NCBI GenBank assembly: GCA_019114495.1
Contig: DXFK01000178.1
Location: forward strand, 1 to 43,543
Direction: 5' to 3'
Length of the DNA: 43,543 nucleotides
DNA from: Candidatus Blautia stercoravium
Lineage (GTDB): Bacteria > Bacillota > Clostridia > Lachnospirales > Lachnospiraceae
In this document: positions 21,625-30,558 of the stretch, piece by piece
Layout: every line of letters begins with the position of its first letter
How positions within the stretch are numbered: position 1 is the first letter of the stretch
Made by a program: the position numbers and the translations under genes
Notes under the pieces: generated by a model
What the model was told of the DNA's origin: nothing
Databases searched by the model: none
Seen by the model: only the letters and a program-made list of their open reading frames with translations

Positions 21625-22614
21625 CTAGAAAATTTCTTTACTTATTTTTTCAATGACTTCGCTTGTAGCTTCATAGACACCTGAGAAGGTACTGATACCA
21701 AGTCCCTGGGTCAGACACGGAATAAAGTATTTTGTACCGTTTTCCTGGCAGACTCTGCGTACTTCTTTATCTACCAGTTCTGGCGTCCAGTCGGGTCTGT
21801 CGATGGAGGCGCTGTCAATACCGCCCATGAAAGTTATCTGGCCCCCGTATTTTTCAATCAGTTCTGGAATGTTGTTGGAACTCATAGTTCCCTGCCAGAT
21901 ATCAATGCCCATATCAATCATGTACGGAACCAGTGTTGCAGCGTAAGAATCGCTGTGGTGAATAATCAGCTCTACTCCATGAGATTTATAATACCCGTAA
22001 ATCTTCTTGTAAGAAGGCAGGATAAATTCCTCAAACATGGCAGGAGAAATAAAGGTTGAAGTCTGGCTTCCCCAGTCATCATGATGAAAAATGGCGTCTG
22101 GTTTTATGTATTTGCAGATTTTTTCCGCATACTGCAGTTCCCATTCAGTGAGGTAGTCAATCAGCTCCTGGGTAGCTTCCGGTTCTTCATAAAAATTCAT
22201 CAGACAGTTCTGGATTTCCTGCAGATGATGGCACTGCTCAAAAATACCAGGCGCTATGAACTGAGTAACAAAATATTCTTTTCGGTCAATTTCCTCTGCG
22301 GCTTTGATATATGGCTCCCATTCAGCGTCAGAATAATCCAGCCGCGGCGCATGTACATAGTTTTTCCAATCCGTAATATCCTTGCATACAATGTGTTCCT
22401 CATCGTGAATGGGGAAACCGCCCGGTGTCCCTTCCGGCCATACATTGGTTACACCCCAGGCATTTTTCACAGGACCTTTTCCATATTCAGGTGCCGGGTT
22501 ATTTACTGTATAAGGGTTAGCCGTAAGCATAGCCAGTGCTTCATATTGATTTACATAACGATCCGGCTTCCCACCTCGGATGGTTTCTAATAAGTTTTGC
22601 CTTTTTGTGAGCAT
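21625..22614 (-). CDS. UROD-family corrinoid methyltransferase (candidate methyltransferase I)
   Basis: This 329 aa protein belongs to the uroporphyrinogen-decarboxylase fold family, which also contains zinc methyltransferases (MtaA, MtbA and O-demethylase enzymes) that move methyl groups to or from corrinoid proteins. Neighbouring corrinoid protein, activator and MeTHF methyltransferase genes point to that role, not to heme synthesis. Features are HHDDWGSQTSTFISPAMFEEFILP, LIIHHSDSYAATLVPYMIDMGIDIWQG, FMGGIDSASID and FIPCLTQGLG. The MtaA-type His-x-Cys zinc pair is not seen. ATG 22614 is chosen since AGGAGG is 8 bases upstream; the track starts at TTG 22620. It has its own promoter, apart from the regulator gene upstream. 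Confidence 0.85.
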   Translation of the reverse strand: MLTKRQNLLETIRGGKPDRYVNQYEALAMLTANPYTVNNPAPEYGKGPVKNAWGVTNVWPEGTPGGFPIHDEEHIVCKDITDWKNYVHAPRLDYSDAEWEPYIKAAEEIDRKEYFVTQFIAPGIFEQCHHLQEIQNCLMNFYEEPEATQELIDYLTEWELQYAEKICKYIKPDAIFHHDDWGSQTSTFISPAMFEEFILPSYKKIYGYYKSHGVELIIHHSDSYAATLVPYMIDMGIDIWQGTMSSNNIPELIEKYGGQITFMGGIDSASIDRPDWTPELVDKEVRRVCQENGTKYFIPCLTQGLGISTFSGVYEATSEVIEKISKEIF

Positions 22615-22634
22615 ACGCAATACCTCCTCGTGAC

Positions 22635-22655
22635 CGGGTACATGAATCGTACCCG
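22635..22655 (-). promoter_or_regulatory. Inverted repeat in UROD-gene leader
   Basis: CGGGTAC and GTACCCG form a perfect 7-base inverted repeat with a 7-base centre, located about 20 bases before the ATG and close to the ribosome site. It could fold in RNA or serve as a regulator operator. Confidence 0.45.
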
Positions 22656-22670
22656 TATAATTCTCATAAA

Positions 22671-22691
22671 GAGCTGTTAGTAGATCAGCTC
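22671..22691 (-). promoter_or_regulatory. Second inverted repeat in UROD-gene leader
   Basis: On the minus strand GAGCTG and CAGCTC flank a nine-base loop and are followed by TTTAT. It lies between the predicted promoter and the first inverted repeat. It may be a small leader hairpin; a terminator role is weak because the stem is short. Confidence 0.35.
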
Positions 22692-22705
22692 CTTATTGCC
22701 TAACC

Positions 22706-22740
22706 TTATGATAACAGGAAAGACAACAGTCTGTAAATCC
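22706..22740 (-). promoter_or_regulatory. Predicted promoter of UROD methyltransferase gene
   Basis: Read on the minus strand, TTTACA is followed 18 bases later by TATCAT, with TG one base before the -10. It lies roughly 100 bases upstream of the ATG, leaving a leader that holds two inverted repeats. Coordinates are approximate. Confidence 0.5.
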
Positions 22741-22764
22741 GTATAAATAAGGTAAAATTCCTGC

Positions 22765-22791
22765 GGCATTGCTACACTGTGTAGGAATGCC
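22765..22791 (-). terminator. Hairpin at the end of the regulator gene
   Basis: On the minus strand GGCATTCCTACA pairs with TGTAGCAATGCC with one C:C mismatch and a three-base loop. It touches the stop codon of the PucR-like gene and is followed only by AATTTTACC, so it is a moderate terminator candidate. The repeated GTAGG/CCTAC pattern could also be an operator. Confidence 0.45.
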
Positions 22792-24314
22792 TACATTTCC
22801 TCATTGTCTAGAAGGCGGAAGGACAGATTCAGATAAAACAGTTCGTCCGAGTCTTCCAAATCTGTTTCCAGAATACTTTTAATTCGCTCCAGACGGTACA
22901 GAAAGGTACTCCGGTGGATAAAGAGAGCCTTGGCGCTTTGAACCGTATTCAGATTATATTCCAGATAGACACGCAAAGTTTTCATGTATTCCGTATTTCG
23001 CAGTCTGTCGGATTTTTGTAAATCCAGTAATTTCTCGTAACAGAGCATATGGCCGGGAAAGGTTTTTACGGATTGCCGGAGAATATAAGGCAGGGCAATC
23101 TGGTTAAAATGATGAATCCAGAGCTGGGGACGGATTTCCAGTCCCAGAGTCAGAGCGGTGAGAGCCTGTAGATACTGCCTGCGCAGATTCATGTGCCCGC
23201 ACATGGAACGGCTGTATCCGGCTTTTAACATACTGTCCCGGATAAAATATACAAGTTCCCGGAAAATTTCTTCCGCTTCCATTTTCAATAGTGTTTCGTT
23301 ATAGAAGCTTACTACATATTCCTTTAAAACAAGGCTGCAGGAAGCGGGAAATTTACTTTTGATATACTGGCATATGGTATTGCCGTTCAGGGATGATGGC
23401 CCTTCTGTCTGAATGACGGAGCACAGATAGGTATGCTCTGCCAGCCAGCCCACATTGGTGAGCAGATGGCTGATACTCATGTAATCGGCAGTGCGGTCCG
23501 ATAAAATGCTCTGAAAAATAGACTGTAAAGTCGTGCTGCGGGAAGAGGATTCTGACTGCATACGGTGCAGAATGTACTCTGCATGATGAGCCAGAATGGT
23601 AATCAGATACCAGTCCGCATCTGTGAGGGGCGTTCCGTTTTCGAGAATAGAGAGCTGGTATTCCGGTTTTCCATCCAGAAACAGGCGGATGTTCAGAGAA
23701 CGGTGTCCGGTAAGATAAGCCGGAAAGAGGAAAGGTTTTGGTGAAGCATCCTCCAGATGAAAATTTTCGTCCTGAATCAGTGCGTGAATATAATCCAGAC
23801 GGAGCGTATCATTTTCAAATATCTGCTGTTCTTCGGGAAGCTGGGAAAGCCCCCGGTGGGCCACCAGAGAAAAATCCATATTCATAATGCACAGAGGATT
23901 TTTAAATACGGGCTGGGAGATTTCCAGTAAATCGGACAGGGAACCGTTCTGATGACAAATGGACACTAACTGCCCTTCCCACTCTTCATAATAATCAAAA
24001 ATAGACTGGATACAGTTAAATACATGAATAACTGAAGTATGGCAGGACAGCAGGAGACAGGAAAAACGGCCTTCCGGGAGATGGGAGGTCTCATTTTTCT
24101 GGCAGATAATCAGCACGGCGTCCTCTGGTATGGATGAAAAAACATCCAGGTCTAAAATAGCGTCTGTGAGATAAATATGGTTATTTTTAAACCCCTTGTC
24201 TGCCTCAAAGAAAAAGGGACGGGCAAGGGGCTGGTTTTTGGATAAAAGCCGATAGTCAGCAATGTGAAATTGTTCTTTCAGATTTTGATACAGTAAAATA
24301 GAGGTAAGCTGCAA
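22791..24314 (-). CDS. PucR/CdaR-like transcription regulator
   Basis: This 507 aa protein has the layout of PucR/CdaR-type regulators: a long N-terminal sensory part and a C-terminal helix-turn-helix (LRVYLEYNLNTVQSAKALFIHRSTFLYRLERIKSILETDL). The C-terminal YLEYNLN...A..LFIHRSTFLYRLERI pattern is the PucR-type HTH_30 signature. The start appears to be TTG 24314 with a GGGGGAG site 9 bases upstream; no suitable ATG is near. It starts 21 bases after the second corrinoid-protein gene and is likely in the same operon as RACo. It probably senses the methylated substrate or its product and controls the UROD gene (inference). Confidence 0.82.
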   Translation of the reverse strand: MQLTSILLYQNLKEQFHIADYRLLSKNQPLARPFFFEADKGFKNNHIYLTDAILDLDVFSSIPEDAVLIICQKNETSHLPEGRFSCLLLSCHTSVIHVFNCIQSIFDYYEEWEGQLVSICHQNGSLSDLLEISQPVFKNPLCIMNMDFSLVAHRGLSQLPEEQQIFENDTLRLDYIHALIQDENFHLEDASPKPFLFPAYLTGHRSLNIRLFLDGKPEYQLSILENGTPLTDADWYLITILAHHAEYILHRMQSESSSRSTTLQSIFQSILSDRTADYMSISHLLTNVGWLAEHTYLCSVIQTEGPSSLNGNTICQYIKSKFPASCSLVLKEYVVSFYNETLLKMEAEEIFRELVYFIRDSMLKAGYSRSMCGHMNLRRQYLQALTALTLGLEIRPQLWIHHFNQIALPYILRQSVKTFPGHMLCYEKLLDLQKSDRLRNTEYMKTLRVYLEYNLNTVQSAKALFIHRSTFLYRLERIKSILETDLEDSDELFYLNLSFRLLDNEEM

Positions 24315-24335
24315 AGTAAATTTCTCCCCCTTTCT

Positions 24336-24971
24336 TCAGACAATAAATGTTTTTGCCAGTTCTGCCGCGTCTACAGCGGATTCTGTGTAAGCGTCAGCGC
24401 CGATACGATCAGCAAATTCCTTTGTCACAGCGCCGCCGCCTACCATGATTTTTAACCGGTGTTCTGTATCTGACTGCCGCAGAGCCTTTACCGCATGCTG
24501 CATACTGGGGCAGGCGGTAGTCAGCAGGGTAGACAGGCAGACAATGGAAACATCAGGATTCTGCCTCACGGCTTTTAAAAACTGTTTTTCGGAAATATCC
24601 ACGCCCAAGTCAATGACTTTAAACCCTGCACTGCGGAACATAATGGCTACCAGATTTTTGCCGACATCGTGTAAATCTCCTTCCACAGTACCTAGAATCA
24701 CGGTTCCCACGTATCTGCCCCGCTCCGATTCCAAATTGGGCGTAAGCAAATCCAGACCTTTACGCATACATCTGGCAGAAGAGAGAATTCTGGGAATGTC
24801 TGCTTCGCTGTTTTTGTACCGTTCCCCCATATGGCGCATGGCAGGAACCATACCTTCGTTCAGGATTTTTATGGCAGGAATGTGCTGCCTTAAAGCCTGG
24901 CTAATCAGTTGCTCGGTTACTTTGTAATGTCCGTTTTCTACAGATTGTTTAATTTCGTTTAATGTTGTCAT
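24336..24971 (-). CDS. Corrinoid methyl-carrier protein 2
   Basis: This 211 aa protein has the two-part layout of methyltransferase corrinoid proteins (MtaC/MtvC type). A helical cap domain (ALRQHIPAIKILNEGMVPAMRHMGERYKNSEADIPRILSSARCMRKGLDLL) is followed by a B12-binding Rossmann domain with GDLHDVGKN, where His101 is the lower cobalt ligand, and GGGAVTKEFADRIGADAY. It carries the methyl group between methyltransferases. ATG 24971 is chosen with only a weak GGGGTG site; Met 24983 and the track start 25034 are alternatives. It is a paralogue of the protein at 27365-27997 and sits in the RACo operon. Confidence 0.9.
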   Translation of the reverse strand: MTTLNEIKQSVENGHYKVTEQLISQALRQHIPAIKILNEGMVPAMRHMGERYKNSEADIPRILSSARCMRKGLDLLTPNLESERGRYVGTVILGTVEGDLHDVGKNLVAIMFRSAGFKVIDLGVDISEKQFLKAVRQNPDVSIVCLSTLLTTACPSMQHAVKALRQSDTEHRLKIMVGGGAVTKEFADRIGADAYTESAVDAAELAKTFIV

Positions 24972-25006
24972 ATTACACCCCATAAATGCCAAATTTCTGA
25001 TTTCTA

Positions 25007-25558
25007 TTATAGCTTTTTGGTTAGTAAAAAACAACTGGTATATGAAATTGTGCAGGGGCCGTAATAGTATGCCAGTCCGTTATCCCGGCATACCTGGGTG
25101 ACCAGCATACCGTAGGCTTCCATAGAAGCAAAAGACTTGTCCGGAAATCGGCAGGGAGACAGGGGATAAGTGCAGGAAGTACAGCGGGTGCAGCAGCCGG
25201 CTCCGATGGGGAGCATATGTGGATAAAGTGGGCGCAGCAATGTTTCCATGGTGGAAAAATGTTCTTTGTGGGCTGCTTCCGTTTCCATCATACCTTCTCC
25301 ATCCATAGAATCCTCCAGTTTCCCTACTGTCTGGACCAGGATGCCATGGCTGTATTTCTGTATTTTTCCCTCACATTCTTCTAAAGTACCGCAGCCCGGA
25401 GGGCAGGACCAGTTTTTTCCATACATGTGGCAGGTGTTTTCCGCACACATTTGGCGCACCTCTGGCAGCAGCTTTATGGTGGAACAATCCAGAGGGGAAA
25501 TATGGGTGAATCCTGCCTGTTTTCCCAGAAGAATCAGTTTTTTAGTCTCTGTTTTCAT
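25007..25558 (-). CDS. DUF2284 cysteine-rich putative metal-binding protein
   Basis: This 183 aa protein matches the pattern of DUF2284 proteins: many cysteines in clusters (CAENTCHMYGKNWSCPPGCGTLEEC, GCCTRCTSCTYPLSPCRFP), suggesting Fe-S or other metal binding. It lies 66 bases after the RACo gene and just before corrinoid protein 2 in the same direction. An electron-transfer or corrinoid-activation role is suggested by context only; the family function is not settled. AAAAGGA precedes the ATG at 25558. No signal peptide or membrane segment is visible. Confidence 0.8.
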   Translation of the reverse strand: MKTETKKLILLGKQAGFTHISPLDCSTIKLLPEVRQMCAENTCHMYGKNWSCPPGCGTLEECEGKIQKYSHGILVQTVGKLEDSMDGEGMMETEAAHKEHFSTMETLLRPLYPHMLPIGAGCCTRCTSCTYPLSPCRFPDKSFASMEAYGMLVTQVCRDNGLAYYYGPCTISYTSCFLLTKKL

Positions 25559-25624
25559 ATGAACACGTCCTTTTTATGTTGTTTTCCCAAGAGGATTTCC
25601 TGGTTGTGGCAATTTTTTAATAGG

Positions 25625-27196
25625 TCAGATGGAGTCCGGAAATTCCAGTTCATCAATGAAGCAGTCCTGAAATTCCGGCAGAGCTGCCAGTTCCAGAAAA
25701 TCTACTTGGTTCATCAGTGTTTTCGTGTATTCCCGTTCTGTTTTGTTTAAAAGTGCGATTTTGGCACCCTCTCCCGCGGCATTTCCCACAGGAAAAATTT
25801 TCTGACGGAGAGCGGCGGGAAGAAGTCCGATGGTACAGGCGCTTTCGGGTGACATATAATTACCGAAAGCTCCGGCAATGCATACGCGGTCAATCTGGCT
25901 GTGGGTAATACCCAGATGTTTTTCAAGCAGGAGAATACCTGCGGCCACCGCGCCCTTTGCAAGCTGAACTTCCCGTATATCCTTCTGGGTCAGATAGACG
26001 TTGGGATAATCCCGGTGATAAAGAAAAGCAGGAAGCCCGTCTTTTGTAGTCATATGAGAGGCAATTTGATTTCCGTAAAGAGCTTTTACCTCTTCCGAGG
26101 TAAGCAGCCGACCCGTTTCGTCTATAATTCCCAGCTTCCGCAGGCAGGCCACAGTGTCAATCAGTCCCGAGCCGCAAAGTCCCACAGGAGCCTGATTTCC
26201 CACAACAGAGATTTGGAAAACACCGTCTTGAAAGGACACATGATCTATGGCGCCTTGAGCGCCCCGCATGCCGCATTCTATTTTAGCGCCTTCAAAAGCA
26301 GGACCTGCGGCAGTAGAGCAGCATACCAGCTTTTCTTTGCTGCCCAGGACAATTTCTCCGTTGGTTCCCATGTCCACAAGTAAAGTCATGTCTTTGGACA
26401 AGTCTGGACGCAGAGCCAATAGGCATCCCATGGTATCTGCCCCCACAAAGCCTGCGATGACAGGCAAAAAGAAAAGCTGTCCTTCGGGGTGAATTTCAAT
26501 GCCGAAGGCAGAAGCTTTTTTCTGTATCAGCCCTTTCTGATAAGGCTTATAGGGCGCCCGTACCAGAGAATCCATGGGAAATGAAAAGAAAATATGGTGC
26601 ATACAGGTATTTCCAACAAGACAAATCTGGCTAATCTGTTCACGGGAAATGTTCCCCTTCTGTGCCAAAATTCCGATTAAATCGTTTACAGCCGTGTGGA
26701 TACAGGCAGAAAGTTCATCAGAACCATTTTTCAGACAATAATCTGCTCTGGAGATTACATCTGCTCCGTAAGCGGTCTGTGGATTGATTTGGCTGGCAGT
26801 ACAAATTTGTTTTCCCGAAGTACCATCCAAAAGATAACAGGCAATGGTTGTGGTCCCAATATCAAAGGCAGCCATATAGGCATTTTCTGGATTTGCCGGA
26901 AAAGAAGAAGGTGAAAAATCCACCCTTCGCTCAAAGGCTCCGGTGAGAATCTGGTGGTTTTCTTCCTGCCGTATGTGTGTGTCTACAGACATGTTCTCCT
27001 GCACGTTTGTCTGACAGGCTCTGACAATTGTTTCCGTATCTCCGGTTTTGACGCGCACCAGACATTTACCGCAGGTTCCCTGTCCGGCGCAGGGAGTATC
27101 AAGAGGAATTCCGGCAGTTCTGGCGGCTTCCATCACCGTGGTATCCTGAGATACCTGTACGGTGATGTTTTCCCGGACAAAGGTTATCGTTCTCAT
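25625..27196 (-). CDS. Reductive activator of corrinoid proteins (RACo-like)
   Basis: RACo-type proteins use ATP and an Fe-S cluster to reduce inactive Co(II) corrinoid back to Co(I). The N-terminal 2Fe-2S ferredoxin domain has Cys36, Cys42, Cys45 and Cys61 (PCAGQGTCGKCLV...RACQ). The C-terminal part is an ASKHA ATPase-like domain starting at FDIGTTTIACYLLDG (about residue 111), with LLVDMGTNGEIVLG and VCIAGAFGNYM. ATG 27196 (523 aa) follows AAGGAGG; the track start 27259 is upstream of the promoter. It should serve both corrinoid proteins encoded here. It leads an operon with DUF2284, corrinoid protein 2 and the PucR-like gene. Confidence 0.93.
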   Translation of the reverse strand: MRTITFVRENITVQVSQDTTVMEAARTAGIPLDTPCAGQGTCGKCLVRVKTGDTETIVRACQTNVQENMSVDTHIRQEENHQILTGAFERRVDFSPSSFPANPENAYMAAFDIGTTTIACYLLDGTSGKQICTASQINPQTAYGADVISRADYCLKNGSDELSACIHTAVNDLIGILAQKGNISREQISQICLVGNTCMHHIFFSFPMDSLVRAPYKPYQKGLIQKKASAFGIEIHPEGQLFFLPVIAGFVGADTMGCLLALRPDLSKDMTLLVDMGTNGEIVLGSKEKLVCCSTAAGPAFEGAKIECGMRGAQGAIDHVSFQDGVFQISVVGNQAPVGLCGSGLIDTVACLRKLGIIDETGRLLTSEEVKALYGNQIASHMTTKDGLPAFLYHRDYPNVYLTQKDIREVQLAKGAVAAGILLLEKHLGITHSQIDRVCIAGAFGNYMSPESACTIGLLPAALRQKIFPVGNAAGEGAKIALLNKTEREYTKTLMNQVDFLELAALPEFQDCFIDELEFPDSI

Positions 27197-27229
27197 ATAA
27201 AACCTCCTTGGGTTACACGTTATGCAGTT

Positions 27230-27238
27230 ATTATACCA
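27230..27238 (-). promoter_or_regulatory. Extended -10 promoter of RACo operon
   Basis: On the minus strand TGGTATAAT forms an extended -10 with a perfect TATAAT. No clear -35 is seen at 16-18 bases. It lies about 30 bases before the RACo start and downstream of the terminator that ends the preceding unit. Confidence 0.6.
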
Positions 27239-27265
27239 CGGGCACAGAATAGAAAGCACCCGCAG

Positions 27266-27344
27266 AAAAGAAAAAACTGCTGCGGAAACATGCGTATCAG
27301 GAATCTGTAAAATATTCCCGCATACAGTGTTCCCGCAGCAGTTT
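27266..27344 (-). terminator. Strong terminator between corrinoid protein 1 and RACo genes
   Basis: On the minus strand AAACTGCTGCGGGAACA pairs with TGTTTCCGCAGCAGTTT (one G:U pair), followed by TTTCTTTTC. A second partial stem lies in the long loop. It separates the MeTHF methyltransferase/corrinoid unit from the RACo unit. Confidence 0.83.
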
Positions 27345-27364
27345 CATTTTGGGCAGTTATGCAG

Positions 27365-27997
27365 TTATGCTGCCAGTTCTTTTGCCTTTTGAGCAGCAGA
27401 GGCAGCATCAGGAGTATAGGCATCAGCGCCGATTTCGTCTGCAAATTCCTGAGTAATCGGTGCGCCGCCTACCATGACCTTGATATTCTTGCGGAAGTCT
27501 GCTTCATTTAAAGCGGCAACCGTATCTTTCAAAGCCGGCATGGTGGTGGTAAGAAGTGCAGATAATCCTACGATTTTTACATCCGGATTTTCTGCAATTG
27601 CATCCATAAATTTGGAAATAGAGACATCCACACCAAGGTCAATGACCTCGAATCCGGCACTTTCAATCATCATAGCCACCAGATTTTTTCCAATGTCATG
27701 CAAATCCCCGGCAACAGTTCCGATAATCATTTTTCCGCATACCGCACCGCCGTCTCCGGCCAGATGTGGTTTGAGCACTTCCACGCCCTTTTTCATGGCT
27801 TTTGCTGCAATCAGCATTTCGGGAACAAAGATTTCATTGTTTTTGAAACGTTCTCCCACAAGTCCCATAGCGTCAATCATAGCATTTAAAAGCTCTGACG
27901 CATCAAAGCCTGCATCTAAGGCTTCCTGTACAAGACCTGGAACTAATTTGGCTTTTCCGGCAGCAACTGCGTCCGCAACAGTTTGAATCTGGCTCAT
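27365..27997 (-). CDS. Corrinoid methyl-carrier protein 1
   Basis: This 210 aa methyl-carrier protein has a helical cap domain (ALDAGFDASELLNAMIDAMGLVGERFKNNEIFVPEMLIAAKAMKKGVEVLKP) and a B12 domain with GDLHDIGKN, where His100 is the cobalt ligand, plus MVGGAPITQEFADEIGADAY. It should hold the methyl group handed over by methyltransferase I and pass it to the MeTHF methyltransferase encoded just upstream. AAAGGAGG precedes the ATG. A strong terminator follows. It differs from corrinoid protein 2 across the cap, suggesting different partners or substrates. Confidence 0.94.
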   Translation of the reverse strand: MSQIQTVADAVAAGKAKLVPGLVQEALDAGFDASELLNAMIDAMGLVGERFKNNEIFVPEMLIAAKAMKKGVEVLKPHLAGDGGAVCGKMIIGTVAGDLHDIGKNLVAMMIESAGFEVIDLGVDVSISKFMDAIAENPDVKIVGLSALLTTTMPALKDTVAALNEADFRKNIKVMVGGAPITQEFADEIGADAYTPDAASAAQKAKELAA

Positions 27998-28010
27998 AAT
28001 AAAATCCTCC

Positions 28011-28040
28011 TTTTGTTTGCAGTAATTTTGTTTGCAGTAA
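28011..28040. repeat. Perfect tandem 15-base repeat
   Basis: TTTTGTTTGCAGTAA occurs twice head to tail in the short gap between the corrinoid protein 1 gene and the MeTHF methyltransferase gene. It overlaps the region just upstream of the corrinoid gene's ribosome site. It could be a slippage duplication; a regulatory role is unproven. Confidence 0.8.
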
Positions 28041-28061
28041 TTGATAGTTTATAAAAATTCC

Positions 28062-28874
28062 CTATTTTACAGGTCCAATCAAACCTTCTCGATAGGCTCC
28101 TATGTATTCCATACAGTAGTCGTCCAGCCCCAGCAGCGCTTCTGTAGCATAGATATGTCCCAGCATATCCCGATTGGCCGGGTCTAAAATGGCACTGTCC
28201 AGACCCGCATTCATGGCAAGTGTCAAAAAGCAGCAGTTTATGAGCTTTCGCACAGGCAGGTTAAAGGAAATATTGCTGATAGCTGCTGTAATGTGTATGG
28301 AAGGATACTGTTTCCGAATAGTGGAAATTACCTCAACATTCATGGCAATACCGTCTTCGGAAGTACATAACATTTCCACCAGAGGGTCAACATGGATTCT
28401 GGAAGGTGCAATGTGATATTCTTCTGCCTTTTCCATAATGTGTTTGAAAACCCGCAGCCGGTCCTGGGCAGTTTTAGGAATTCCCGTATTGTCGCTTAAT
28501 AAGGCAATAACCTGCCAGTCCTTATTTTCCTCCTGAGCCAGAATGGGGAAGATCTTGTCAATTTTCTCTCCCTCTCCGGATACGGAATTGAAGATTCCCG
28601 GCCGTTTGCAGTGGGTGTAGACTTGAGCCAGCACATCCGGGCTTGGGCTGTCAATGGAAATCGGCAAATCTGTAACTTCCTGTATGCAGTCAATCATCCA
28701 CTTTAAGGTATCTGCTTCTATGTCCTCCGGCACAGAGGCACAGCAGTCAATATAAGAAGCATTGGCATCTGCCTGCATTTTTGCTCTGTTTTTAATAAAT
28801 TCCGCATCTCGGTTGGCAATGGCCTGGGCAACAGAGGGAATGGAGCCATTGATTTTTTCTCCGATAATAATCAT
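28062..28874 (-). CDS. Methyltetrahydrofolate:corrinoid methyltransferase
   Basis: This 270 aa protein is a pterin-binding TIM-barrel methyltransferase, close in pattern to AcsE/MeTr. It would move the methyl group from methyl-Co(III) corrinoid protein to tetrahydrofolate (methyltransferase II), feeding the Wood-Ljungdahl branch or one-carbon metabolism. Motifs are IIGEKINGSIPSVAQAI, SIDSPSPDVLAQ, FNSVSGEGEKIDKIFPI, DNTGIP, IHVDPLV and ISNISFNLP with the catalytic-site Asn. ATG 28874 is chosen, as GEKING is the family start and AAGGAGG lies 11 bases upstream; the track start 29111 reaches into the divergent MATE promoter. It leads the unit with corrinoid protein 1. Confidence 0.92.
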   Translation of the reverse strand: MIIIGEKINGSIPSVAQAIANRDAEFIKNRAKMQADANASYIDCCASVPEDIEADTLKWMIDCIQEVTDLPISIDSPSPDVLAQVYTHCKRPGIFNSVSGEGEKIDKIFPILAQEENKDWQVIALLSDNTGIPKTAQDRLRVFKHIMEKAEEYHIAPSRIHVDPLVEMLCTSEDGIAMNVEVISTIRKQYPSIHITAAISNISFNLPVRKLINCCFLTLAMNAGLDSAILDPANRDMLGHIYATEALLGLDDYCMEYIGAYREGLIGPVK

Positions 28875-28911
28875 GATATATGCAGCCTCCTTACTGATTT
28901 GTTCTACTTGT

Positions 28912-28919
28912 ATTTTAGC
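28912..28919 (-). promoter_or_regulatory. Extended -10 promoter of MeTHF methyltransferase unit
   Basis: On the minus strand TGCTAAAAT gives an extended -10, about 35 bases before the ATG. The -35 is poor. This is one of three units in the methyl-transfer cluster with a TGn before the -10. Confidence 0.5.
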
Positions 28920-29091
28920 AGAAAGCAGGCTGGGGAGATATTCTATAAAGTGTTTGTAATTGGGGAAAGGTCTTCGTACAGAATGTAGGAGGGAAAAGGA
29001 ACAGGACAGGGCTTCAAAAGTCACAGTTCGTCTTGAAAAGCATCCACAGTACGGATATGAATTCCAGGCGTCTTTTTTGTGTGGGAATGTC

Positions 29092-29121: not shown

Positions 29122-29163
29122 GTCTCTTATCACCATCAAAACAGACAAAAGAGGGGGATTGTG

Positions 29164-30558
29164 ATGAAAAGTACATGGAGACAAAAGCTGATAGGAGACA
29201 AAAGTTTTTACAAGATGGTGCTGCTCATAGCCGTACCGATTATGATTCAGAATGGTATTACGAATTTTGTAAGCCTTCTGGATAATATTATGGTAGGACA
29301 GGTCGGTACAGAACAGATGACGGGTGTTGCCATTGTTAACCAGCTGATTTTTGTATACAATTTGTGCATTTTCGGAGGGGTTTCCGGTGCGGGCATTTTT
29401 ACGGCACAGTTTTTCGGGCAGAAGGATGACGAAGGCGTGGCCAATACCATGCGGTTTAAACTCTACATGGGAGCAATTCTGACCGGAATTACGGTTCTGC
29501 TGTTTCTTACTTTTGGGGAACCTCTGATTCAGATGTATTTAAAAGGAAATCAGGACGGAGGTGATGTGTCTGCTGCGCTCCGCTATGGAAAAGAATATCT
29601 GAGAATCATGCTCATAGGTCTGCCGCCGTTTATGCTGGTGCAGGTTTATGCCAGTACGCTGAGAGAGTGCGGAAGAACTGTTACACCTATGAAGGCAGGG
29701 ATTGTGGCAGTGATAGTGAATCTGGTATTTAACTATCTTCTGATTTACGGAAAATTTGGATTTCCAGAGATGGGAGTTGCAGGTGCCGCAGTTGCAACCG
29801 TGCTTTCCCGTTATGTAGAGGCGCTTATTGTAGTGGGTTGGACACACAGGCATAAGGAAATTAATACTTATATATCCGGTCTGTATAAAACTGTAAAAAT
29901 ACCGGCCTATCTGGTAAAAAGAATTCTGATAAAGGGAACTCCGCTGCTGCTGAATGAGACTCTTTGGGCAGCGGGTATGGCTGTGCTTTTGCAGTGTTAT
30001 TCCGTCAGAGGTATGAATGTAGTAGCAGGAATGAATATTTCCAATACGATTTCAAACTTATTTAATGTGGTATTTATTGCATTGGGCGATTCTGTGGCTA
30101 TTGTAGTAGGACAGCTTCTGGGAGCAGGCAAAATGGAAGAGGCCAGGGATACGGACAGAAAGATGATAGCCTTTTCGGTGGCCTGCTGTACCCTCATGGC
30201 GCTGGTTATGCTGGTCATTGCTCCGCTGTTTCCGCAGCTTTACAATACCAATGCCCAGTCCAGGGAATTTGCCAAATATTTTATTATGGTGACAGCTGTG
30301 TTTATGCCACAGAATGCCTTTTTGCATGCCGCTTATTTTACCCTGCGTTCCGGAGGGAAAACGATAGTTACCTTTTTCTTTGACAGCGTGTTTATCTGCT
30401 GCGTCAGTGTACCTATTGCGTATTTGCTGGGACATTTTACAGACTTGTATGTGGTGTATATTTTTATTGCTGTACAGCTTGCAGATATTATTAAGTGTGT
30501 CATCGGATTTATTCTGGTGAAAAAGGGTGTCTGGCTGCAGAACATTGTAGAAGTATAA
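29164..30558 (+). CDS. MATE-family multidrug/metabolite exporter
   Basis: This 464 aa integral membrane protein belongs to the MATE family, which exports cationic drugs or metabolites using Na+ or H+ gradients. The opening KMVLLIAVPIMIQNGITNFVSLLDNIMVGQVGTEQMTGVAIVNQ is typical, and about twelve hydrophobic segments are visible. ATG 29164 follows a GAGGGGG site and a promoter at 29092-29121; the ORF-track start at 28960 lies upstream of that promoter. The gene is divergent from the methyl-transfer cluster. Any link to export of demethylated products is speculation. A good terminator follows. Confidence 0.92.
   Translation: MKSTWRQKLIGDKSFYKMVLLIAVPIMIQNGITNFVSLLDNIMVGQVGTEQMTGVAIVNQLIFVYNLCIFGGVSGAGIFTAQFFGQKDDEGVANTMRFKLYMGAILTGITVLLFLTFGEPLIQMYLKGNQDGGDVSAALRYGKEYLRIMLIGLPPFMLVQVYASTLRECGRTVTPMKAGIVAVIVNLVFNYLLIYGKFGFPEMGVAGAAVATVLSRYVEALIVVGWTHRHKEINTYISGLYKTVKIPAYLVKRILIKGTPLLLNETLWAAGMAVLLQCYSVRGMNVVAGMNISNTISNLFNVVFIALGDSVAIVVGQLLGAGKMEEARDTDRKMIAFSVACCTLMALVMLVIAPLFPQLYNTNAQSREFAKYFIMVTAVFMPQNAFLHAAYFTLRSGGKTIVTFFFDSVFICCVSVPIAYLLGHFTDLYVVYIFIAVQLADIIKCVIGFILVKKGVWLQNIVEV

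Follow-up and report, generated by a model that had tools for sequence, protein, structure and literature searches.

The stretch of DNA analysed here, hereafter called the window, is one entire contig (C148; 43,543 nucleotides) of Candidatus Blautia stercoravium, whose draft genome comprises 2.67 Mb in 219 contigs and is approximately 91% complete. Positions 21625 to 28874 contain seven genes, which probably encode a corrinoid O-demethylase of the veratrol type (VdmB-like); with it, this gut acetogen would feed methyl groups from methoxylated plant-type aromatics into acetogenesis. The genes code for a methyl-donor:corrinoid methyltransferase (MT I), two corrinoid proteins (CP1 and CP2), a reductive activase (RACo), a methylcorrinoid:tetrahydrofolate methyltransferase (MT II), a cysteine-rich DUF2284 protein and a PucR-like regulator. 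Gene content, conservation, the MT I clade, the Wood-Ljungdahl genes, a shared motif and the linkage between DUF2284 and RACo were computed here; the named comparison genomes were those of Acetobacterium dehalogenans DSM 11527 and Eubacterium callanderi FD.

From these data, we infer the substrate, the flow of the methyl group, the binding of the regulator to its site and the role of DUF2284. MT I would bind a methoxylated aromatic and transfer its methyl group to the Co(I) of CP1, and possibly of CP2 too, thereby releasing the phenol (ArOCH3 + Co(I)-CP1 -> ArOH + CH3-Co(III)-CP1). MT II would hand the methyl group from CP1 to tetrahydrofolate, and methyl-tetrahydrofolate would then enter the Wood-Ljungdahl pathway to yield acetate. 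Oxidised Co(II) would be returned to Co(I) by RACo with ATP and an electron donor, perhaps together with DUF2284, which would probably assist activation as a cysteine-rich partner of RACo and the corrinoid protein. When an aromatic is sensed, the PucR-like protein would turn on the MT II operon and MT I by acting on CTACA-N3-TGTAG sites.

The initial annotation of the window had already proposed the route from MT I via a corrinoid protein and MT II to tetrahydrofolate, including the activase, and had guessed at methoxylated aromatics as substrates. Both the pathway logic and the substrate guess find good support here. The description as an undescribed system with unknown substrate, however, was too strong, given the clade that MT I shares with A. 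dehalogenans MT Is, the match of CP1 and MT II to O-demethylase partners and the known activity of the genus. O-demethylation has been reported for Blautia (PMC12915777, PMC9602652, PMC13418474); Blautia producta and Blautia sp. MRG-PMF1 ('guaiacol lignan methyltransferase') demethylate lignans, methoxyflavones, 3-methoxytyramine and etoposide (PMC13418474, PMC9560768, PMC12915777). The enzymes for drug O-demethylation have been described as unresolved (PMC13418474), and redundancy among several MT Is is one explanation offered for uninformative knock-outs in Eubacterium limosum (PMC12915777). Thus, reaction type and genus-level activity are already known; what appears to be new within the literature examined is the assignment of a conserved seven-gene locus, the shared operator, the loss of presumed zinc ligands and the DUF2284-RACo linkage. 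Dietary lignans, host 3-methoxytyramine and drugs, etoposide among them, are all altered by O-demethylation in gut bacteria. The window locus offers a simple case for finding Blautia O-demethylase genes, since with a single URO-D-type MT I in the genome, gene and activity could be matched directly. It may overlap with a lignan-induced locus of B. producta, which was reportedly found by Bess et al. in 2020.

Content and conservation of the locus

All seven genes lie on the minus strand and are transcribed in the order MT II, CP1, RACo, DUF2284, CP2, PucR-like regulator and MT I. The first six are separated by intergenic gaps of approximately 20 to 170 nt, and the gap of approximately 175 nt between the PucR-like gene and MT I contains its own promoter-like site. 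Likely start positions are 22614 for MT I, 24971 for CP2, 27196 for RACo and 28874 for MT II. The features are as follows:

21625..22614, minus strand: MT I, URO-D-fold methyl-donor:corrinoid methyltransferase, 329 aa; a longer, TTG-started open reading frame extends to 22620
22708..22737, minus strand: putative sigma-70 promoter of MT I, TTTACA-18-TATCAT with TG ahead of the -10 element
22772..22784, no strand assigned: putative operator CTACACTGTGTAG (CTACA-N3-TGTAG), 157 nt upstream of the MT I start
22791..24314, minus strand: PucR-like transcriptional regulator, 507 aa, C-terminal HTH_30
24336..24971, minus strand: CP2, second corrinoid protein, DxHxxG motif
25007..25558, minus strand: DUF2284 cysteine-rich protein, 183 aa, 14 cysteines
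25625..27196, minus strand: RACo/RACE-type reductive activase of corrinoid proteins, N-terminal 2Fe-2S domain, CAGQGTCGKC
27365..27997, minus strand: CP1, methyl-carrying corrinoid protein, DxHxxG motif
28062..28874, minus strand: MT II, methylcorrinoid:tetrahydrofolate methyltransferase, pterin-binding, NCBIfam PRK07535
28976..28988, no strand assigned: putative operator, second copy (CTACATTCTGTAC on the minus strand), approximately 100 nt upstream of MT II, kept in six genomes

The seven parts named in the initial annotation were all borne out by Pfam and NCBIfam domain matches. MT I matches URO-D (E 4e-16), the regulator the C-terminal helix-turn-helix of PucR (E 2e-18), CP1 and CP2 the domains B12-binding and B12-binding_2 (E 1e-15 to 1e-25) and the DUF2284 protein its Pfam family (E 6e-47); RACo is matched over its full length by middle, C-terminal and 2Fe-2S domains (E down to 3e-77), and MT II reaches 325.6 bits against PRK07535 (cut-off 259). 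An MT I, a DxHxxG corrinoid protein, a RACE/RACo activase and a methyltetrahydrofolate-type MT II, the component set of a corrinoid O-demethylase, are therefore encoded together.

The gene order is found entire at five loci of congeners (L042, L044, L046, L048 and L049); three further copies (L043, L045 and L047) are interrupted by contig ends, and in G016 the order can be followed from MT II to the PucR gene, where the contig ends. The ratios of nonsynonymous to synonymous substitution rates (dN/dS; Nei-Gojobori method, reference G004) are 0.017 for MT I, 0.038 for CP1, 0.040 for MT II, 0.044 for CP2, 0.055 for PucR, 0.058 for DUF2284 and 0.115 for RACo; they are rough because several dS values exceed 1, though all are low. 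All seven genes are under purifying selection, and the recurrence of the gene order together with the low dN/dS of every gene argues against a chance arrangement. In G004 (L049:7710-8703), MT I runs into another frame near its C-terminus, possibly by a frameshift. The N-terminal part of RACo and its remainder are separate matches in G005 and G009 (L050:1172-2905 and L051:1577-3310), with an in-frame stop nearby (TAG and TAA, respectively).

The closest relative, G010, whose MT I is 98% identical, lacks the part corresponding to positions 24440-29080 of the window and carries approximately 990 bp instead (L041, G010:C1:66000-84000). This 4.6-kb deletion removes MT II, CP1, RACo, DUF2284 and most of CP2; the regulator and MT I are kept, and MT I is still constrained (dN/dS 0.03). 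The loss of this hub (CP1, CP2, MT II, RACo and DUF2284) in G010 and the splitting of the G004 MT I over two frames could point to a locus that is decaying and of little use to the strain. Such decay is hardly credible, however, as all frames in the window are intact and dN/dS lies between 0.02 and 0.12 relative to G004.

MT I, its partner proteins and their relatives

A. dehalogenans, for which 26 methyltransferase systems have been described (PMC13222342), has 22 matches to the MT I profile. The window MT I is 57-61% identical over its full length to eleven A. dehalogenans MT Is, and in a maximum-likelihood tree of 50 rows it shares with them a clade of 22 rows with a support of 100/100. According to PMC13222342, OdmB, VdmB and MtvB demethylate methoxyaromatics and belong to the UroD superfamily. 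When the PDB was searched with the MT I profile, only UroD and an MtaA/MtbA-type methyltransferase were matched; the sequence alone gave no match there, and a PHROGs search gave none either.

We take E-X14-E-X20-H to be the zinc motif of the veratrol MT I and D-X27-C-X39-C to be that of the vanillate MT I; the papers searched did not confirm either motif. In A. dehalogenans, the former is confined to this clade, where seven of the eleven members carry it at one aligned position, and nine of the eleven if it is read as E-[DE]-H. The latter is found in exactly one other paralogue, L124, which is encoded in an MTII-CP-MTI cluster and, judged by this presumed motif, is likely OdmB. L127 is likely CdmB, given its MTI-CP-MTII gene order, as in cdmBCA. 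Both lie far outside the clade of the window MT I, which carries HHSDSY where others have HxCG; HHxDx marks this clade and its sister clade, and HxC is found in most distant paralogues. Neither the presumed vanillate motif nor the clade of the OdmB candidate includes the window MT I.

Among the partner proteins, CP1 and MT II favour a veratrol-type O-demethylase. CP1 is 62-65% identical to full-length carriers encoded in A. dehalogenans MT I clusters and matches PDB 1y80, presumably a Moorella corrinoid protein, with 192 bits. CP2 shares 48% identity with CP1 and no more than approximately 41% with full-length carriers of A. dehalogenans and E. callanderi. Several A. dehalogenans MT IIs share 58-59% identity with the window MT II, whose end-to-end alignment to PDB 4o0q/4o1e/4o1f, the MT II of the Desulfitobacterium hafniense O-demethylase, scores 290 bits; a carrier of the window matches PDB 4jgi from the same system.

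Among the described systems, the veratrol O-demethylase of A. dehalogenans (the VdmB system) has the same four-component logic; however, the window cluster also holds a second carrier, DUF2284 and the activase. The activase gene of A. dehalogenans is separate from its O-demethylase cluster. In the accessible part of the structure paper on D. hafniense (PMC3727330), the system consists only of carrier, methyl-donor and methyl-acceptor protein, whereas DUF2284, the PucR regulator and a second carrier are features of the window. The vanillate O-demethylases OdmB of A. dehalogenans and MtvB of Moorella thermoacetica and the archaeal MtoB are alike in reaction type and accessory proteins; however, the OdmB candidate L124 belongs to a separate clade and has an HxCG motif, and MtoB, with 47-48 kDa (PMC8630106), is larger than the window MT I. 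The chloromethane system CdmBCA of A. dehalogenans likewise combines a URO-D-fold MT I, a carrier and an MT II in one cluster (PMC13222342); apart from the distant position of L127, it differs in that the carrier and MT II of the L127 locus are 45-46% identical to CP1 and MT II.

Wood-Ljungdahl genes are present in the genome: contig C123 carries metF-cooC-acsA-cooC-acsB-acsD, where acsA (607.9 bits, cut-off 478) and acsB (1053.6 bits, cut-off 800) exceed the cut-offs of their models, acsD is partial, both cooC calls come from a look at the sequence only and metF does not reach its model's cut-off. A catabolic sink for methyl groups is thus on offer, which speaks against a role in methionine or general one-carbon synthesis only, as a split methionine synthase. 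The initial annotation had considered that the genes might serve methionine synthesis only. In favour of this, a search of the genome turned up no MetH-type corrinoid module, and MT II is similar to the MetH folate module. Nevertheless, we consider such a role very unlikely: unlike a housekeeping enzyme, the MT I family exceeds 20 members in A. dehalogenans as well as in some congeners, and the hub was lost from G010 and is missing from other congeners as well.

Several points weigh against a veratrol-type O-demethylase. No substrate follows from the sequence. The window MT I has Q137, E152 and K173 (numbering of the 331-aa open reading frame) in place of the E-[DE]-H of its clade-mates; because it lacks the presumed veratrol motif, it is labelled VdmB-like and not VdmB. 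In its subclade (seven rows, support 99/97), the first ligand is replaced by Q (or P) and the third by K, and with two of the three presumed zinc ligands replaced, chemistry or substrate may differ. Even the reference to VdmB (Q6W001) is provisional, since its place in the clade is deduced from the presumed zinc motif. The single-sequence structure model of MT I is poor (predicted local distance difference test score, pLDDT, 45), and AcsC, AcsE and AcsV were not seen in the draft genome, in which the acs contig ends inside acsD. Zinc loss would not be unprecedented, as a zinc-free Cdm and a zinc-free Moorella O-demethylase have been reported (PMC13222342).

The replaced ligands could also indicate that MT I acts on another methyl donor, be it methanol, a haloalkane, as for CdmB, or a methylated thiol or selenol, as for MtaA-like proteins; haloalkane- and sulfur-specific MT Is do exist in the URO-D superfamily (PMC13222342, PMC10418091). 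We regard this as improbable. An MtaA/CmuA/MtbA-like identity was rejected, with scores far below the cut-offs (47 versus 244 and 39.5 versus 235 bits) and HHSDSY in place of the HxC motif that the CdmB candidate and distant paralogues carry; the candidates for CdmB and OdmB fall outside the clade, and methanol was rejected because no MtaB (PF12176) is encoded in the window or anywhere else in the genome.

A tentative extension, somewhat short of probable, is that the hub is shared. According to the initial annotation, no MtaB, MttB or MtgB homologue is present, which holds for the window (no member of PF06253 or PF12176) but not for the genome, where contig C112 encodes one MttB-family (PF06253) protein of 477 aa on the same strand as, and just downstream of, a BCCT betaine/choline-type transporter gene. 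The hub might also serve this protein in the demethylation of a quaternary amine such as a betaine, with CP2 as a possible carrier, which would add to the O-demethylase function and not replace it. No B12-binding_2 carriers besides CP1 and CP2 were found in the genome, and within the genus 7 of the 13 genomes that have the hub encode MttB-family proteins, as against none of the seven that lack it; therefore, the carriers and MT II may be shared. However, the pairing is tentative, the genome is a draft of approximately 91% completeness, and a role of CP2 for MttB alone was rejected, as the six hub genomes without MttB still keep CP2. The MttB-family gene on C112 (L146:2130-4689) has no in-frame stop, and a transposase-like fragment lies nearby.

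URO-D-type MT Is may share partners, too. In congeners, the number of URO-D-type matches reaches 22 in a single genome, and many of the paralogue loci fetched adjoin a PucR-like gene, while nearly all are without a carrier, MT II or activase in the flanks of approximately 5-9 kb examined. This suggests that regulator-MT I pairs draw on one common partner set, like spokes on a hub. The window genome has only one such pair, and its MT I is the sole URO-D protein found in the draft genome; consequently, no HemE was seen there.

DUF2284 and the regulator

The position of the DUF2284 gene next to RACo recurs beyond Blautia. A survey of 98 related genomes places DUF2284 no more than 3 kb from RACo at 17 loci, spread over five genera; uniform placement would give 0.35 such loci (the relatives are not independent). 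In a sixth genus, one DUF2284 locus is 5 kb away from RACo. RACo is present in 32 of the 33 genomes with DUF2284. In G022, G054, G056 and G069, which belong to four other genera, DUF2284 is found near a carrier and RACo, in one case beside an MttB protein and without any MT I match. Ten of the 14 cysteines are invariant across 13 sequences, including CxxCxxCx6C; the single-sequence structure model is too poor to use (pLDDT 35). DUF2284 probably aids corrinoid activation by iron-sulfur or metal handling, and its linkage to RACo makes it a candidate for a missing part of this process. More specifically, DUF2284 could be dedicated to RACo-type activases as a partner in iron-sulfur or metal handling, e.g., as their physiological electron donor, within a self-contained O-demethylase module in which PucR reads an aromatic ligand via CTACA-N3-TGTAG. 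This combined proposal draws on the invariant cysteines and on the closeness of DUF2284 to genes for RACo and carriers, which is seen in several genera irrespective of the kind of MT I; we nonetheless consider it unlikely. Since some genomes have further DUF2284 copies away from RACo, the link is not exclusive. Two such copies are present in the window genome (L133:7194-7730 and L134:8063-8608), and extra copies recur across the genus, including genomes without the hub. A second activase-like protein of 521 aa with an AcsV-like C-terminal part is encoded on contig C101 (L040:4196-5758) among different gene neighbours, and similar proteins are found in many congeners.

According to PMC13222342, the regulation of such systems is still largely unexplored; the shared operator offers a starting point for testing it. 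In an alignment of the gap between PucR and MT I from eight genomes, the inverted repeat CTACA-N3-TGTAG is followed by TTTACA and then by TG..TAT..AT, a promoter core conserved in all eight. When 300 nt upstream of each of 50 MT Is were scanned, the repeat was found exactly in nine of ten orthologs and with one mismatch in the tenth. Only one further MT I, L117 of A. dehalogenans, has an exact copy; L057 deviates by one mismatch, and the remaining 38 deviate by at least two. The repeat is thus not a general MT I signal, as it is missing at most stand-alone MT I paralogues. At L117, it sits between a PucR gene and an MT I that is 58% identical to that of the window, and the L117 PucR is the best A. 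dehalogenans match to the window regulator (27% identity). The promoter region of MT II contains the repeat with one mismatch in the window, and this element is conserved in six genomes. Through this common site, the PucR-like protein would probably activate MT I as well as the MT II operon when it senses an aromatic.

Divergent from the MT II operon, positions 29161-30558 of the window hold a gene for a MATE-family efflux transporter with 94-95% identity in the two nearest relatives; it could be an exporter of phenolic products. The window also encodes a GH31 alpha-glucosidase, which matches PDB 3n04, the enzyme of Ruminococcus (Blautia) obeum, with 1111 bits.

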